In this document: positions 6,386 to 37,336 of the stretch, piece by piece
Layout: each line of letters begins with the position of its first letter
Position numbering within the stretch: the stretch's first letter is position 1
NCBI GenBank assembly: GCA_903881565.1
Contig: CAIRTR010000040.1
Span: forward strand, 1-38,693
Reading direction: 5' to 3'
Length of the DNA: 38,693 bases
From: Oligoflexia bacterium
GTDB lineage: Bacteria; Bdellovibrionota; UBA1018
Notes under the pieces: generated by a model
Told to the model about the DNA's origin: nothing
What the model saw: only the letters and a program-made list of their open reading frames with translations
Database searches by the model: none
Translations under genes and position numbers: made by a program

Positions 6386-8830
6386 CTACACCAAAATTTC
6401 AGATTCCGCTACCTCTGCGGCCGGAATATCTAAAGAAAAATCCGAGGCGACATCACTCAGGTCATCCGAAAAGTCATCCGAAGACAACTGACTTTGGTAT
6501 TCGAACTCAAGCTCATCGCCCATGAGGCCCACTCGCACCAGGCCTCCATGCTCAAGACGCCCAAACAGGATTTCATGGGCAAGCATTTTCTTAATCTGAT
6601 CCGCAATGATTCTCGCCATGGGTCTCGCCCCCAGTTTGCGATCATAACCTTTTTGTGTGAGCCAGATTCGCACTTCAGGCGAAAAGATCGATTCAACTTT
6701 ACGCGCAAGCAGCTGTGATTCAAGTTCACATAAGTGCTTATCGACGACTTGAGAAACCGCGTCACCGTTGAGTGCATTAAAATAAACAATCGAATCAAAG
6801 CGATTTCGGAACTCAGGAGAAAAAGTCTCTTCGACAGCCTTTTTCGCAGATCCCGCAGGCATCCCATCGGCTGCGCCAAGGCCCAGCGGATTGCGATCCA
6901 TTTCGCGCGACCCCACGTTCGAGGTCAAAATAATGACTGCATTTCTGAAGTCAGCCTTGCGCCCATTATTGTCCGTCAGCGTGCCATGATCCATGACCTG
7001 CAACAGAATATTCCAAACGTCTGGATGCGCTTTTTCAATCTCATCCAGAAGAATCACACAGTGTGGATTCTTCGAAACCGCCTCACTGAGCAACCCCTGC
7101 TGCTCAAATCCTATATACCCCGGAGGGGCCCCAATAAGCCGTGAAACCGTATGTTTTTCGCTGTATTCGCTCATATCAAAACGTAGAAAAGTCACGCCCA
7201 GCGCACTTCCCAGCTGCTTACTCAACTCCGTTTTCCCCACCCCCGTGGGCCCACAAAACAAGAAGCTCCCCACCGGTTTTTCAACCCCACGCAGACCTGA
7301 GCGCGCGAGCCGGATCGCCGTCACAAGCGTTTCAATGGCTTGATTCTGTCCAAAAACCACCAATTTAAGATTGCGCTCCAAGTGTCGCAGATTTTCTTTT
7401 TCAGAGGAATTGAGCGCCCGAACCGGGACACGTGCGATTTGCGCGACGACAGCTTCGATTTCGTTAACCCCAATCAGCGAGCCGATCTTTTGGCCGGTGA
7501 GTCGGGCTTTTGCCCCCGCTTCATCCAAAATATCGATGGCTTTATCAGGCAAGAATCGATCCGTCAGGTAACGCTTGGACAAACTCACGGCGGCGGTGAG
7601 TGAATTCGCACTGAAACGAATCTGATGGTGCTCTTCGATTTTGGCTTTGAGGCCTGTTAGAATTTTAACTGAATCCTCTTCGTTTGGCTCGACCACCTCA
7701 ATCCGCTGAAACCTGCGGGCAAAAGCGCGATCCTTTTCAATGACCGAGCGATATTCTGAAAAAGTGGTGGTCCCGATCAGCCGAATTTCGCCTCGCGAAA
7801 GTGCGGGCTTTAGCAGACTTGCCGCATCCATACTGCCGCCGCCCACGGCCCCGGCGCCCATCAACGTATGAATTTCATCAACAAGAAGAATCGGGGTTTC
7901 TCCCTTTTCCTTTAGCTTCGCAAGAGCCGCAAGCACCCGCTTGAGGCGCTGCTCAAAATCTCCTCGATACTTCGTGCCCGCGACCAAACTCCCCATCTCC
8001 AGGGAATAAACGACAGCGCCCTTCAAGAGTTCTGGAACTTTGCCCTGCACAATTCGCTGAGCCAGGCCCTCGGCAATGGCAGTTTTTCCGACCCCTGCCT
8101 CCCCCACCAGGAGAGGATTATTTTTTCGTCGTCTGCAAAGGGTTTGAAGGACCCGATCCATTTCATCATCACGTCCAATGAGAGGATCTAAGCCTCCAAG
8201 CAGTGCCCGTTGATTCAGATTTTCAGAAAAAGCCTTCAAAAAGTCTTCGGGGGCGGCACCCGACTCCGCTGCGGCTTGTGTTTCGCTTTCCCGATCATTT
8301 TCGGGGTCGTTTTCCGCTTCACCTGACTCACCAGCCCCCCCCGTGAGGTCCCCACCATGGCTGATAAAGCTCAAAAGGTCGAGGCGCTGAATCCCCTGCT
8401 GCTTGATCAAGAATAGCGCATGTGAATCTTGCGCTTGAAAAAGCGCGACCAATAAATCGACGGGTTGAATTTGCTCTTTGCCAGCTGACTGAACCTGAAA
8501 AAGGGCGCGCTGAACCAACCGCTGCACACTGAGGGTTGCGACGGGGTGCTCTACTTCGTCGAGCTCTTCTTGGGTTTCTTCAGCTTCCTTGGCTTGTGCT
8601 GCTTGCCCCGCGTCCACCACAGGCGCCTTCGGGACTTCTTTGTTCAAGAAGAGCTCAGTCTCTTCTCTGAGCCGTTGCACATCCCCCCCACAGGCCTGCA
8701 GAGCCTCGGTTACGAAAGGATCAGAGAGCAGGCAAAACAAGACATGTTCTAGAGTAAAATACTCATGTCTTTGTTCAAACGCTAATTGAACCGCTTCGTT
8801 TAGAATGGCTTCTGCCTTTTTCCCTACCAT
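6386..8830 (-). CDS. clpA: ATP-dependent Clp protease ATP-binding subunit ClpA
   Basis: This AAA+ unfoldase feeds substrates to ClpP in the cytosol. I choose ATG at 8830 (814 residues) because AAGGA lies seven bases upstream; the further in-frame TTG at 8848 lacks a site. An N-domain of about 150 residues is followed by a very acidic linker ([12 protein letters not shown]). AAA module 1 has Walker A GEAGVGKT (~243-250) and Walker [10 protein letters not shown]; module 2 has Walker A GPTGVGKT (~527-534), [13 protein letters not shown] and the ClpP-docking-type LGL (~649-651) within NPLGLG. The C-terminus carries an unusual acidic Ser/Asp/Glu-rich extension of about 35 residues ([20 protein letters not shown]). 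The gene sits 44 bases downstream of clpS on the same strand, the classic arrangement. No clpP is in the window. Confidence 0.95.
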
Positions 8831-20507: not shown

Positions 20508-21155
20508 ATGCGGATCACACAGACTCTAGTGCTTGCGACAAACAACTCAGAGAAGTTTGAAGAATTCAAAACTCTTTTCACAGGTTACCCGGAACTGCAC
20601 CTCACCCCCGCCTCTGCGGTACTTGCCAACCCTGACAAACTGGAACTTGTTGAAACCGGAGACACCTACCTGGAAAACGCGATCGCAAAAGCGCGTTCCG
20701 TAAACCGCGCCTGTCACTCACCCTGTCTCGGGGACGACTCAGGCCTGGAAGTCAAAGCTCTCGGAGATCTTCCGGGTCCCAAAAGCCGAAGATTTGCTCC
20801 GAAAGCGGCGCCCGGGACTGACAAACTCACTGCGGATCGGGCCAACACCGAGCACCTTCTCAAGGAGATTAAAAAAAAAGGAGGAGGAACCGAAGCCCAG
20901 TTCGTCTGCACGCTCGCTTTAGTGATTGAAGGAATTCTGCTACACGCTTCTGGCTCTCTCGAGGGAAACATCATCGACATTCCACGCGGCAACATGGGTT
21001 TCGGTTATGATCCCGTTTTTGTGCCCAAAGGGATGACAAAAACACTTGCAGAAATGACGTTAAACGAGAAGAATCTGATTTCTCATCGCGCCAAAGCACT
21101 TCATGCCTTGATGACTCAAGTGCGGGCACGTGGGATCTCTTTTGCTAAGCCATAA
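20508..21155 (+). CDS. rdgB: XTP/dITP diphosphatase (RdgB/HAM1 family)
   Basis: This enzyme removes non-canonical purine nucleotides (dITP, XTP) from the pool by hydrolysis to the monophosphate and pyrophosphate. The 215 residues include TNNSEK (11-16), GDDSGLEV (75-82) with the Mg-binding acidic pair, GFGYDPVF (164-171) and SHR (192-194), all diagnostic. The loop after GDDSG reads LPGPKSRRFAP instead of the usual PGxYSARYAG, a small departure at the nucleotide side. No strong Shine-Dalgarno precedes the ATG; coupling to the upstream lipoprotein gene (21 bases away) may compensate. It is cytosolic. Confidence 0.92.
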   Translation: MRITQTLVLATNNSEKFEEFKTLFTGYPELHLTPASAVLANPDKLELVETGDTYLENAIAKARSVNRACHSPCLGDDSGLEVKALGDLPGPKSRRFAPKAAPGTDKLTADRANTEHLLKEIKKKGGGTEAQFVCTLALVIEGILLHASGSLEGNIIDIPRGNMGFGYDPVFVPKGMTKTLAEMTLNEKNLISHRAKALHALMTQVRARGISFAKP

Positions 21156-21199
21156 TTTTATAAAACGCAGTTTTTAATAAGTAAAAAGGAAATCAAGAA

Positions 21200-21832
21200 A
21201 TGGAAATCACCACCACCGCTTTAGTCGCCTTGGCTCTCAACTCTTTTCTCGCGACGTCCCTGACGGGACGCCCGCTACCCCACCCGGGTGATCAACTTGC
21301 TTTTGAACTCAAAACCCAGATTCAGCAAAAAGCGAAATCCTGTGAAGCCACCTTTTCCCTTAATGTCACGGCCGCGCTTGAAAACCGAGACTCGCTTGTC
21401 GTGACTTCTACCACCACGCAGACCGTGGGCCCTTCAGGCTGTGGAAAGCCCACGAATGCGATCAAGTCCTGGCATTATCGGGCAACCGACAACGCCTTGA
21501 TGATGGTTACCGAATGCAAAACGGCGGATCTCTCTACTTGCGTAAGTCGTGATCCTGTTGCCGAAGACCAGTGGCAATCGCCCGAAGCTCAGGCCAACTG
21601 CAAATTCGTAGGCACTGAACCCATGCAAGGCCCTGAAGGCAAACTCAACACTCATCGCTACCATTGCGATAACTCCGCATCTGTTGGCGGTGTCGCATTA
21701 ACAGATTTCTGGCTCGATGAATCTTACTACCCTGCTTACCCGATCATCAAGACCGCCGCGCAAATTGAGATTCCACAGTATCAAGTGAAAATGCATGTGG
21801 AACAAATGCTGAAGTCGATGAAGCGGAACTAA
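21200..21832 (+). CDS. secreted protein of unknown function
   Basis: This encodes 210 residues from ATG at 21200, with AAGGAA eight bases ahead. The N-terminus (MEITTTALVALALNSFLATS) is hydrophobic but lacks a basic n-region, so it is a weak signal peptide. The mature chain has about seven cysteines with spacing that suggests disulfides (KSCEATF, PSGCGKP, TECKTADLSTC, ANCKF, YHCDN), consistent with export. Strand-rich segments dominate (LVVTSTTTQTV, YQVKMHVEQ). No family is recognised. Its stop codon overlaps the stop of the convergent gene by two bases. Confidence 0.6.
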   Translation: MEITTTALVALALNSFLATSLTGRPLPHPGDQLAFELKTQIQQKAKSCEATFSLNVTAALENRDSLVVTSTTTQTVGPSGCGKPTNAIKSWHYRATDNALMMVTECKTADLSTCVSRDPVAEDQWQSPEAQANCKFVGTEPMQGPEGKLNTHRYHCDNSASVGGVALTDFWLDESYYPAYPIIKTAAQIEIPQYQVKMHVEQMLKSMKRN

Positions 21833-35601: not shown

Positions 35602-36165
35602 TCATTTTTTCATTAAAACTTCGACAAAACCAGAGAGAGTTTTGGAATAGATATCGCCGAACACGAACCAGGGCACCACGCCAACCCCGATGACCCAAAA
35701 GAGAAGCAAAGTCCACGTCTTGACCCATAGCTTCTTAAACCAATGGTTTGTGCGCGAGAGGCGCCAGGATCTGAGAATCAGAAAAATGACAAGCCAGCCC
35801 ACCTCAAAATAGACGAGGTACATGCGCTTGGGATGGTTTACCAACTGCTCCGTTCCTTGAGAAAACTCAGGACTTGAAAAAAGTCTGAGATAGCTCTTGG
35901 TCGCGGGGTGATTGAGCAGTTTTTGAAGCTGCTCCATCCCGGCGGGAAGGTTCTGAGGGGGCGCACCCGGCTTTCCATATTGTGCGCTCATCGGATTCAG
36001 CGCATTGATGGCGCCAAAGGCTTTTTGCTGTTCTTCGTTTAATTTTTGAATTTCGGCAATGGGATCATCGCCGCCTTGTTGGGCTTGCGGATTTTGCGAT
36101 GGCCCGGCGGCAAATACCGTCGCACTCAGACAGACACTGAGCAGTGCCAGTAAAAGAGCACGCAC
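35602..36165 (-). CDS. exported or inner-membrane protein of unknown function
   Basis: This encodes 187 residues from GTG at 36165, five bases after the stop of the degenerate sigma-54 regulator gene. A signal peptide (MRALLLALLSVCLSATVFA) is followed by a Gln/Pro/Asn-rich hydrophilic stretch (~20-110). Two transmembrane helices follow near the C-terminus (about 'LVYFEVGWLVIFLILRS' and 'TWTLLLFWVIGVGVVPWFVF'), separated by a basic loop (RSWRLSRTNHWFKKLWVKTW). No family is recognised. Its coupling to the regulator gene suggests they share a message, and the hydrolase gene follows 35 bases later. Confidence 0.75.
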   Translation of the reverse strand: MRALLLALLSVCLSATVFAAGPSQNPQAQQGGDDPIAEIQKLNEEQQKAFGAINALNPMSAQYGKPGAPPQNLPAGMEQLQKLLNHPATKSYLRLFSSPEFSQGTEQLVNHPKRMYLVYFEVGWLVIFLILRSWRLSRTNHWFKKLWVKTWTLLLFWVIGVGVVPWFVFGDIYSKTLSGFVEVLMKK

Positions 36166-36170
36166 CGCAG

Positions 36171-37247
36171 TTACGCGACCTTTTTTACTTCGTGCTCGTC
36201 TTCGCGATATTGTGCCGATTTAATGGCGTGGCGACGCAGGAGTCGCAAGAAGTTACTGCGATCGAGTTTCGATTCGCGCGCAGCCGAGGAGACGTTCCCC
36301 TCGTGACGGGTAAGGAGTTTCACGAGATAATCTCGCTCAAACGTATCGGACCATTTCTTTTTGATTTCGGTATAGCCTTCATCACTATCGGTAGCAACTG
36401 GAGGGACGAATCCAGGACGAACAAGTTCCAACACGCGGCCGCCTTCGCGACCTTCTGGGCGGTTCGGGGTCACGAGTCCCATGAACGCGGCTTCTCCTAC
36501 TGCTTTACCCGAAGTCCAAACCAAGGCTAATCGTTGCATCATCACCCAAAGCTCACGCACGTTGCCTGGCCAAGAGTAGATGCGAAGAATGCGTTCGGCC
36601 TCCGTGGTGAAGCCCACAAAATGTTTTCCATAAACCTTAAAAGTCTTTTCGGCAAAATGCATTGCCATCGGCATCAGATCTTCGGTCCTCTCACGCAGCG
36701 AGGGGATCTTCAGAGTCGCCGTTGCAAAATATTCGCGCACTTCAGGCGTAATCTGCGGGAAAATCTCTTTAGTCACCGAAGCCAGTAATCTGAAATTCCA
36801 TTGATGTTTTTTCATGCCCTCGAAGAATCGGCGCTGATTAACGACCGCCATTTTCGAGATATCACCTAAGAACAATGTGCCTCCTGTAGCTAATTCGCAG
36901 GCTCCAACTTTTTCTGAAAAGAGTTCGGTTTCTTGCTCCTCTGAAGTGAGTCCGGAAAGCGAGACATTAATCCAAGGCCCTTGGCTTCTTCGCGAACCTT
37001 CGTGAATCAAGTGCGCGAGCATTTCTTGCCCCACTCCCGTTTCGCCTACCAAAAGAACCGGCACCTCGTGAAAAGCGGGTCCGGTGGGCTCAGGCTTGAT
37101 CGCCTCCCTCCGAAGCGCGGTGAGGACTTCATTAATGGGGGCCATCAAAACGTCTTTAGAAACAAATCGAAGCTGCTGCTCCTCACGTCCTTCGAAACGG
37201 GCAAGTCGTTCAGCCAATTGTGATTCAGATGAGTTTTTATTTGCCAT
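36171..37247 (-). CDS. degenerate sigma-54-activator-like protein with Fis-type HTH
   Basis: I use ATG at 37247 (358 residues), with AGGGGG five bases upstream. The AAA+ domain is recognisable (VPVLLVGETGVGQE at 63-75, ATGGTLFLGDI, IPSLRER at 181-187, SWPGNVREL at 225-233) but has lost key parts. The Walker A Lys is Gln (Q74), the GAFTGA sigma-54 contact loop is deleted (LFSEKVGACELATGG), and Walker B reads LFLGD instead of LFLDE. The C-terminal Fis-type helix-turn-helix (~316-340, EGNVSSAARESKLDRSNFLR) is intact. It therefore should bind DNA but not remodel sigma-54 holoenzyme. There is no receiver or other sensor domain; the N-terminus is ~55 residues of charged helix. A membrane-protein gene follows by five bases. 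Confidence 0.85.
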   Translation of the reverse strand: MANKNSSESQLAERLARFEGREEQQLRFVSKDVLMAPINEVLTALRREAIKPEPTGPAFHEVPVLLVGETGVGQEMLAHLIHEGSRRSQGPWINVSLSGLTSEEQETELFSEKVGACELATGGTLFLGDISKMAVVNQRRFFEGMKKHQWNFRLLASVTKEIFPQITPEVREYFATATLKIPSLRERTEDLMPMAMHFAEKTFKVYGKHFVGFTTEAERILRIYSWPGNVRELWVMMQRLALVWTSGKAVGEAAFMGLVTPNRPEGREGGRVLELVRPGFVPPVATDSDEGYTEIKKKWSDTFERDYLVKLLTRHEGNVSSAARESKLDRSNFLRLLRRHAIKSAQYREDEHEVKKVA

Positions 37248-37261
37248 GAAGCCCCCTTGGT

Positions 37262-37336
37262 TCATATTACCAGACCAAACTGCTCTGTTACTAGTCCTAT
37301 CGGACATAGGTCAAAAATAAGTAAGAGGCTTAACAA
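37262..37336 (-). CDS. possible 24-residue leader ORF
   Basis: A TTG at 37336 lies ten bases after a perfect AAGGAGG (37347-37353) and opens 24 codons, mostly hydrophobic (LSLLLIFDLCPIGLVTEQF). Its TGA (37264-37262) overlaps an ATG (37265) in frame with the regulator gene. The strong ribosome site is otherwise unexplained. It could be a leader peptide or a chance frame. Confidence 0.25.
   Translation of the reverse strand: MLSLLLIFDLCPIGLVTEQFGLVI

Follow-up and report, generated by a model that had tools for sequence, protein, structure and literature searches.

P0001, a gene for a degenerate NtrC-type protein in an Oligoflexia bacterium, probably encodes a DNA-binding regulator that has been uncoupled from sigma-54, and is in our judgement a working gene rather than a broken one. 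It lies in a window of 38,693 nt, the whole stretch of DNA that was analysed, which is contig C40 of a 4.56-Mb, 323-contig MAG (G000). The protein derives by degeneration from a copy of the NtrC-type response regulator (RR) of an operon that also encodes an HDOD protein, a kinase (HK) and a GGDEF protein, and because its linker helix, a probably folded AAA scaffold, the helix-turn-helix (HTH) and the C-terminal tail remain, it was taken to be a constitutive regulator that is controlled by its amount.

P0001 is encoded on the minus strand, as are all features of the window given below; the plus-strand frame over 36171-37247 is interrupted by several stops. The reading frame adopted here (358 aa; 36171-37247 including the stop codon) begins at an ATG at 37247 that has AAGGGGG a few nucleotides upstream, and it coincides with the interval given in a preliminary description of this DNA. 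The longest frame from a first ATG covers 36171-37307 (378 aa), and a start at 37307, giving a longer protein, is possible. Pfam matches were obtained to Sigma54_activat (8.6e-15), AAA_lid_14 (8.4e-15) and HTH_8 (1.2e-4), the last with a score barely above the cut-off (22.1 vs 22). The whole receiver domain (REC) is missing and the protein begins at the REC-AAA linker helix, the counterpart of which was assigned from alignments to residues 4-50 (37098-37238), which are helical in the predicted structure.

Alignment with full-length relatives revealed that the Walker A sequence GESGTGKEG has become GETGVGQEM in P0001 (residues 68-76; 37020-37046), with Lys replaced by Gln at position 74 (K74Q), that the GAFTGA stretch between ELF and the counterpart of KRG is absent, ELF being followed by SEKVG with 11 alignment columns gone at the junction F110/S111 (36915-36920), and that the Walker B sequence LFLDE reads LFLGD (residues 125-129; 36861-36875), with Gly-Asp at 128-129 in place of Asp-Glu. 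The AAA+ lid (residues 185-250; 36498-36695), delimited by the AAA_lid_14 match, keeps WPGNVREL, of which GNVREL occupies residues 228-233. The linker and Fis-type HTH (residues 292-348; 36204-36374) are the best conserved part of the protein by alignment and identity, and here LDRSNFLRLLRRH is identical to the family consensus. Relative to 22 full-length family members, the median identity of P0001 is 33% in the AAA core and 64% in the HTH, the latter being conserved to much the same degree as in active relatives. The preliminary description, which had reported the same three lesions together with retention of GNVREL and of the Fis-type DNA-binding domain, and which had recognised a former sigma-54 activator that lost its ATPase and sigma-54 contact, is borne out on these points and somewhat understates the losses. 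The stretch FREDLYHRL of full-length relatives, which we take to contain the arginine-finger residues, reads EVREYFATA in P0001, AATN is represented by ASVT, and some 11 residues are gone around RRVGG. ATP hydrolysis is not credible because the Walker A Lys, the Walker B Asp-Glu and the arginine fingers are gone; sigma-54 contact is not credible because L1 is gone; and there is no phosphorylation input because the receiver is absent.

An AlphaFold2 model of P0001, built from 27 aligned rows, contains the AAA core and lid with all five AAA strands (mean pLDDT 81.6, pTM 0.64), although it constitutes weak evidence of folding because the input alignment contained intact relatives. In Foldseek the predicted structure was matched to NtrC1 (1ny6) with a TM score of 0.83 by target length, and Foldseek and sequence searches together matched P0001 to NtrC1, NtrX, PspF and the GAFTGA-less VpsR.

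G000 contains 16 strong PF00158 matches besides P0001. In a 44-row tree, a 30-row family (support 100/100) includes P0001 and one of them, L013, and the other G000 activators of that tree fall outside it. L013 is an intact family member on contig C100, encoded in an HDOD / PAS-HisKA kinase / response regulator / GGDEF operon. P0001 has neither an HDOD gene nor a kinase gene beside it, and the only element that it has in common with the operon is c7, which encodes a 187-aa protein 5 nt downstream (35602-36165) and has relatives located 3' of the intact operon in six loci (G025, G002, G019, G006, G003 and G004). Because c7 adjoins P0001 while the intact operon is on C100, P0001 appears to be a copy of the operon regulator that became separated from its kinase. 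Relatives of c7 are present in 29 of the 58 genomes searched, G000 counted in; its product gave no Pfam or NCBIfam match and, by eye, has a signal-peptide-like start and hydrophobic stretches. The median identity of L013 to the 22 other full-length members is 77% in the AAA core and 56% in the HTH, the HTH value being the lowest among the 23 full-length members, narrowly (the next is that of G023, 58%). The order of genes HDOD, PAS/HisKA kinase, NtrC-type regulator, GGDEF and c7 was observed at L066:5546-10559 and recurs at matching loci across many of the order's genomes, where KamA, ExbB/ExbD-like genes and a short-chain dehydrogenase are often its neighbours. Literature searches returned no published account of this operon.

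The family was surveyed with a 58-residue linker-HTH query, which found a match (E 1e-9 or lower) in 47 of the order's 55 genomes. Matches in G035 and G040 were weak (41-46%) and were set aside. Clear matches remained in 45 genomes, of which G000 has two family copies and every other genome has one. Between the corresponding piece of P0001 and the other clear family copies, identity is 53-72%. A pattern search for related loci that used P0001 alone found nothing, and one that used the family alignment returned 44 loci, all in MAGs and mostly in Oligoflexia, Bdellovibrionales or Bacteriovoracaceae. From 44 of the 45 clear-match genomes (all but G032), 45 family proteins were read. Full-length REC-AAA-HTH proteins with all motifs present account for 23 of these, and seven have a degenerate AAA+ domain, namely P0001 and the copies in G009, G014 (its start cut by a contig end), G017, G022, G027 and G039. 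Eight others are REC-HTH proteins from which AAA+ is absent (G038, G043, G045 and G050-G054); these belong to one genus, whose other species have full-length forms in the same operon. Four consist of the HTH with a degraded or unrecognisable REC and without AAA+ (G013, G026, G031 and G034), the copy in G041 is odd in having GAFSGA and altered arginine-finger residues, and two were left unclassified (G005, cut by a contig end, and G037, with a 62-residue frame). At the G037 locus, L148 (G037:C1, near 207238-207387), a named record of the same place matches more of the query upstream of this short HTH frame, and it may represent a pseudogene or a sequencing error. In a 19-member alignment including all architectures, the invariant columns lie between K296 and R348, apart from M1.

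Losses of the same kind as those of P0001 were thus seen in orthologues, in both the alignment and the architecture survey. Retention of the Lys and of GAFTGA by orthologues had been expected to indicate a recent pseudogene or an error in P0001; 23 relatives do retain both, but 18 other family proteins have a stripped AAA+ domain or none, and the stripped pairs that could be tested evolve under purifying selection. The degenerate pair G009/G027 is under strong purifying selection, with a dN/dS ratio of 0.06 overall (0.02 in the HTH and 0.07 in the part that precedes it), while four REC-HTH pairs gave 0.03-0.05, G031/G026 gave 0.14 and three full-length pairs gave 0.07-0.21; G030/G020 and G034/G026 were saturated. 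These figures come from relatives, as no relative close enough for a dN/dS estimate of P0001 itself was found. Neutral drift was simulated to at most 37% identity in 400 runs for each of three family members, and the frame stayed free of stops in 7, 2 and 2 runs. Because drift left nearly no stop-free runs, the open frame of P0001 is unexpected at this divergence without selection.

A count of changes on an rpoN tree of 36 genomes, with G005 and G041 omitted and G000 scored as full, gave five steps from the full to a lost state, and four to seven over 1000 bootstrap trees; the tree is weakly resolved, its starred branches alone forcing only three changes of the label 'full'. Sigma-54 itself was found in 51 of the 55 genomes of the order, and was not found in G014, G025, G027 and G034, all of which are at most 88% complete. 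A single origin of all degenerate forms was recovered in the 44-row tree (71/59) but in only 30% of the bootstraps of a trimmed tree, in which G041 fell outside the group, and both results were regarded as unsafe because of long branches. The branch leading to P0001 is itself long (2.2-2.6 changes per site), and its placement as sister to the G017 copy (98/86 in the 44-row tree and 95/66 in the trimmed tree) was rejected as a long-branch join. A sister relation of P0001 and L013 was not rejected (AU p 0.131).

The presence of the kinase tracks the integrity of the receiver. A kinase gene was found directly upstream of all 32 response regulators with an intact REC (23 full-length, eight REC-HTH and G041), four of which loci had supplied the query kinases, and upstream of none of the 11 proteins with a lost or degraded REC, of which G014, G022 and G031 have little or no upstream sequence. 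Likewise, the HDOD partner was found in all 11 intact-REC genomes that were tested, and genome-wide searches did not find it in any of the 10 other stripped-REC genomes; because the latter are incomplete MAGs (71-97% complete), an individual absence may reflect a gap. HDOD was also missing in G011 and G012, genomes without a detected family member. HDOD was preferred over the kinase as a marker because a kinase search at E 1e-40 missed the diverged kinase of G041 itself.

Besides the HTH, the extreme C-terminus was found to be conserved. Ala-Ala, Val-Ala or Ile-Ala ends 41 of the 45 family proteins, the other four ending in Ala-Ser or Ala-Gly, and the same endings occur in 11 of 234 neighbouring ORFs of at least 150 aa, a comparison in which the counts derive from related sequences and the Fisher p, which ignores relatedness, is not to be taken at face value. 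Among 12 other G000 activators, one ends in Ala-Ala. Within the family, anywhere between 23 and 50 residues separate DRSN from the C-terminus. In the motif table of PMC9775585, the ends KKVA and KKAS match those listed for YbaQ and PncB, and the KKVA of P0001 (36174-36185), as a C-terminal motif, agrees with the definition of ClpXP C-motif-1/2 given there, resembling C-motif-2. ClpX was found in all eight genomes searched, and the family tail is likely a ClpXP-type degron, judged from these endings. The ClpXP substrate CtrA is, like members of the P0001 family, a transcription factor that ends in AA or VA. CtrA belongs to another class of response regulators than the NtrC-type proteins. Receiver, AAA+ domain and kinase are disposable in the relatives of P0001, and the HTH and tail are kept.

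P0001 would thus act constitutively, probably as a dimer, by binding DNA at the sites of the family HTH, independently of ATP hydrolysis and of sigma-54, with its level probably set by ClpXP-type proteolysis and not by phosphorylation. Its effect might be exerted by site occupancy, through repression or competition with L013, or alternatively by assistance to the sigma-70 polymerase, as with other GAFTGA-less NtrC proteins. Site occupancy is favoured, being somewhat the likelier of the two, since no part other than the HTH and tail is common to all forms. A dyad search over 43 upstream regions yielded only TCAA-N4-TTGA, in seven regions (shuffled maximum five), three of them from related genomes, and no target site was established from it. 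In L062, L066 and L068 the dyad lies 52-61 nt before the HDOD match and is followed by a shared TGTGTCCG, a possible regulatory site specific to these relatives.

In the preliminary description, P0001 was proposed to repress sigma-54 promoters or to act there as an antagonist or anti-activator. Such a role is possible in G000, where P0001 and the intact L013 occur together, and P0001 could then be a dominant antagonist of L013, a special case of site occupancy, blocking sigma-54 activation at the same sites or through mixed oligomers. P0001 keeps the family-consensus recognition helix, the HTH of L013 being somewhat diverged (64% vs 56%), and persistence of the predicted AAA fold would make mixed oligomers conceivable. 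The oligomer interface is formed by the arginine fingers, L1 and L2, however, and these parts are largely lost from P0001; in addition, the two linker-HTH regions are only 53% identical over 58 residues, so their sites may not be shared. Moreover, the two-copy state is confined to G000. Because no second family copy was found in the 10 other stripped-REC and eight REC-HTH genomes, the family has no active member there that could be antagonised, and antagonism cannot be why stripped forms have been kept in those genomes. Antagonism of L013 is accordingly considered rather unlikely, and as a general explanation a regulator that works independently of sigma-54 is preferred. Activation or repression of sigma-70-type promoters, another special case of that explanation, is possible but doubtful. 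According to PMC10274813, Caulobacter NtrC, which lacks GAFTGA, is both an activator and a repressor at sigma-70 promoters, with precedents in Rhodobacter and Vibrio, and PMC3162934 lists TyrR, DhaR, HupR, VpsR and YplP as activators without a sound GAFTGA that are sigma-70 dependent or probably not sigma-54 dependent; L1 deletions are found among these precedents. The REC-HTH relatives of P0001, which keep the kinase and lack AAA+, cannot work by sigma-54 remodelling. Against this, the same account of Caulobacter NtrC has its AAA+ and REC domains as needed for growth on ammonium (PMC10274813), and P0001 has neither a REC nor a credible ATP site; nor did the dyad search find a target site for it.

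Decay of P0001 as a pseudogene that is redundant with L013 and whose frame happens still to be open would be compatible with its long branch and with the failure to find a close relative, and it could be a lineage-specific duplicate, since a sister relation to L013 was not rejected. This reading is made improbable by the simulations, in which no fewer than 393 of every 400 neutral-drift runs acquired stops, and by the pattern of loss, which is concentrated in the AAA core while the HTH and C-terminal tag are kept; furthermore, codon-position GC is as in neighbouring genes, and a comparable degenerate gene elsewhere is constrained (dN/dS 0.06). An artefact of sequencing, assembly or binning is far less probable still. 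The MAG has 323 contigs, of which the window is one, but no frameshift has to be invoked, and the losses consist of several deletions that preserve the frame and of replaced catalytic residues. Other genomes have analogous forms, and P0001 adjoins c7, the operon neighbour in six other loci.

Compared with functional bEBPs (PF00158), P0001 has the AAA+ domain and lid but not the Walker A Lys, Walker B Asp-Glu, GAFTGA or arginine fingers. It shares NtrC ancestry, an L1 deletion and a kept Fis HTH with GAFTGA-less bEBPs, and the conserved linker-HTH and its place inside the family tree identify it as a member of the family specific to this order. RegA/PrrA/ActR-type response regulators have a REC-Fis layout, which is that of the eight REC-HTH relatives but not that of P0001, which has no receiver. 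As described in PMC10274813, Caulobacter NtrC and Rhodobacter capsulatus NtrC resemble P0001 in their in-frame L1/GAFTGA deletion and kept HTH; they keep the receiver, whereas P0001 lacks it along with the Walker A Lys, Walker B Asp-Glu and arginine fingers, and they belong to another phylum and another operon. TyrR, DhaR, HupR, VpsR and YplP share activator descent and loss of GAFTGA with P0001 (as listed in PMC3162934), but each is known as a single end point, whereas the P0001 family ranges in steps from intact proteins to ones without AAA+.

NtrC proteins that lack GAFTGA and act at sigma-70 promoters are thus known. The novelty of the P0001 family, on which literature searches found no paper, is that a single orthologous group contains graded stages, that loss of the receiver goes with loss of the kinase, and that the tail is conserved. 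The route from a sigma-54 activator to sigma-54 loss has usually been inferred from one end point, and single cases are known. The P0001 family is a single orthologous group whose genomes have, with few exceptions, retained sigma-54. It contains intermediates from the intact protein through a dead ATPase to AAA-less forms, and the kinase is lost or retained to match. Because intermediates and kinase states occur in one group, the order of losses is testable. The series suggests that DNA occupancy and turnover, and not polymerase remodelling, are the selected functions of the regulator. More tentatively, its functional core in this uncultured order may be the Fis-type HTH plus the C-terminal ClpXP tag, with receiver, kinase and sigma-54 engine detachable and lost about four to seven times, and the ancestral regulator may have split in G000 into L013, with the ATPase kept and the HTH drifting, and P0001, with the HTH kept and the ATPase dying. 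If this is true, an activator driven by phosphorylation and sigma-54 became a DNA-binding protein controlled by proteolysis.

Two further loci in G000 were noted. L018 (G000:C271, about 21044-21427, plus strand) encodes a second odd activator-like protein, in which Walker A is intact (GSSGSGKG), the GAFTGA region and Walker B Asp-Glu are missing, and no HTH is visible in the 307-residue frame. At L249 (G000:C153), the KamA/ExbBD/c8 neighbourhood that is usually located 5' of the operon is present without it, and a transposase-like ORF, recognised from its translation, lies downstream (7947-8498, minus strand).
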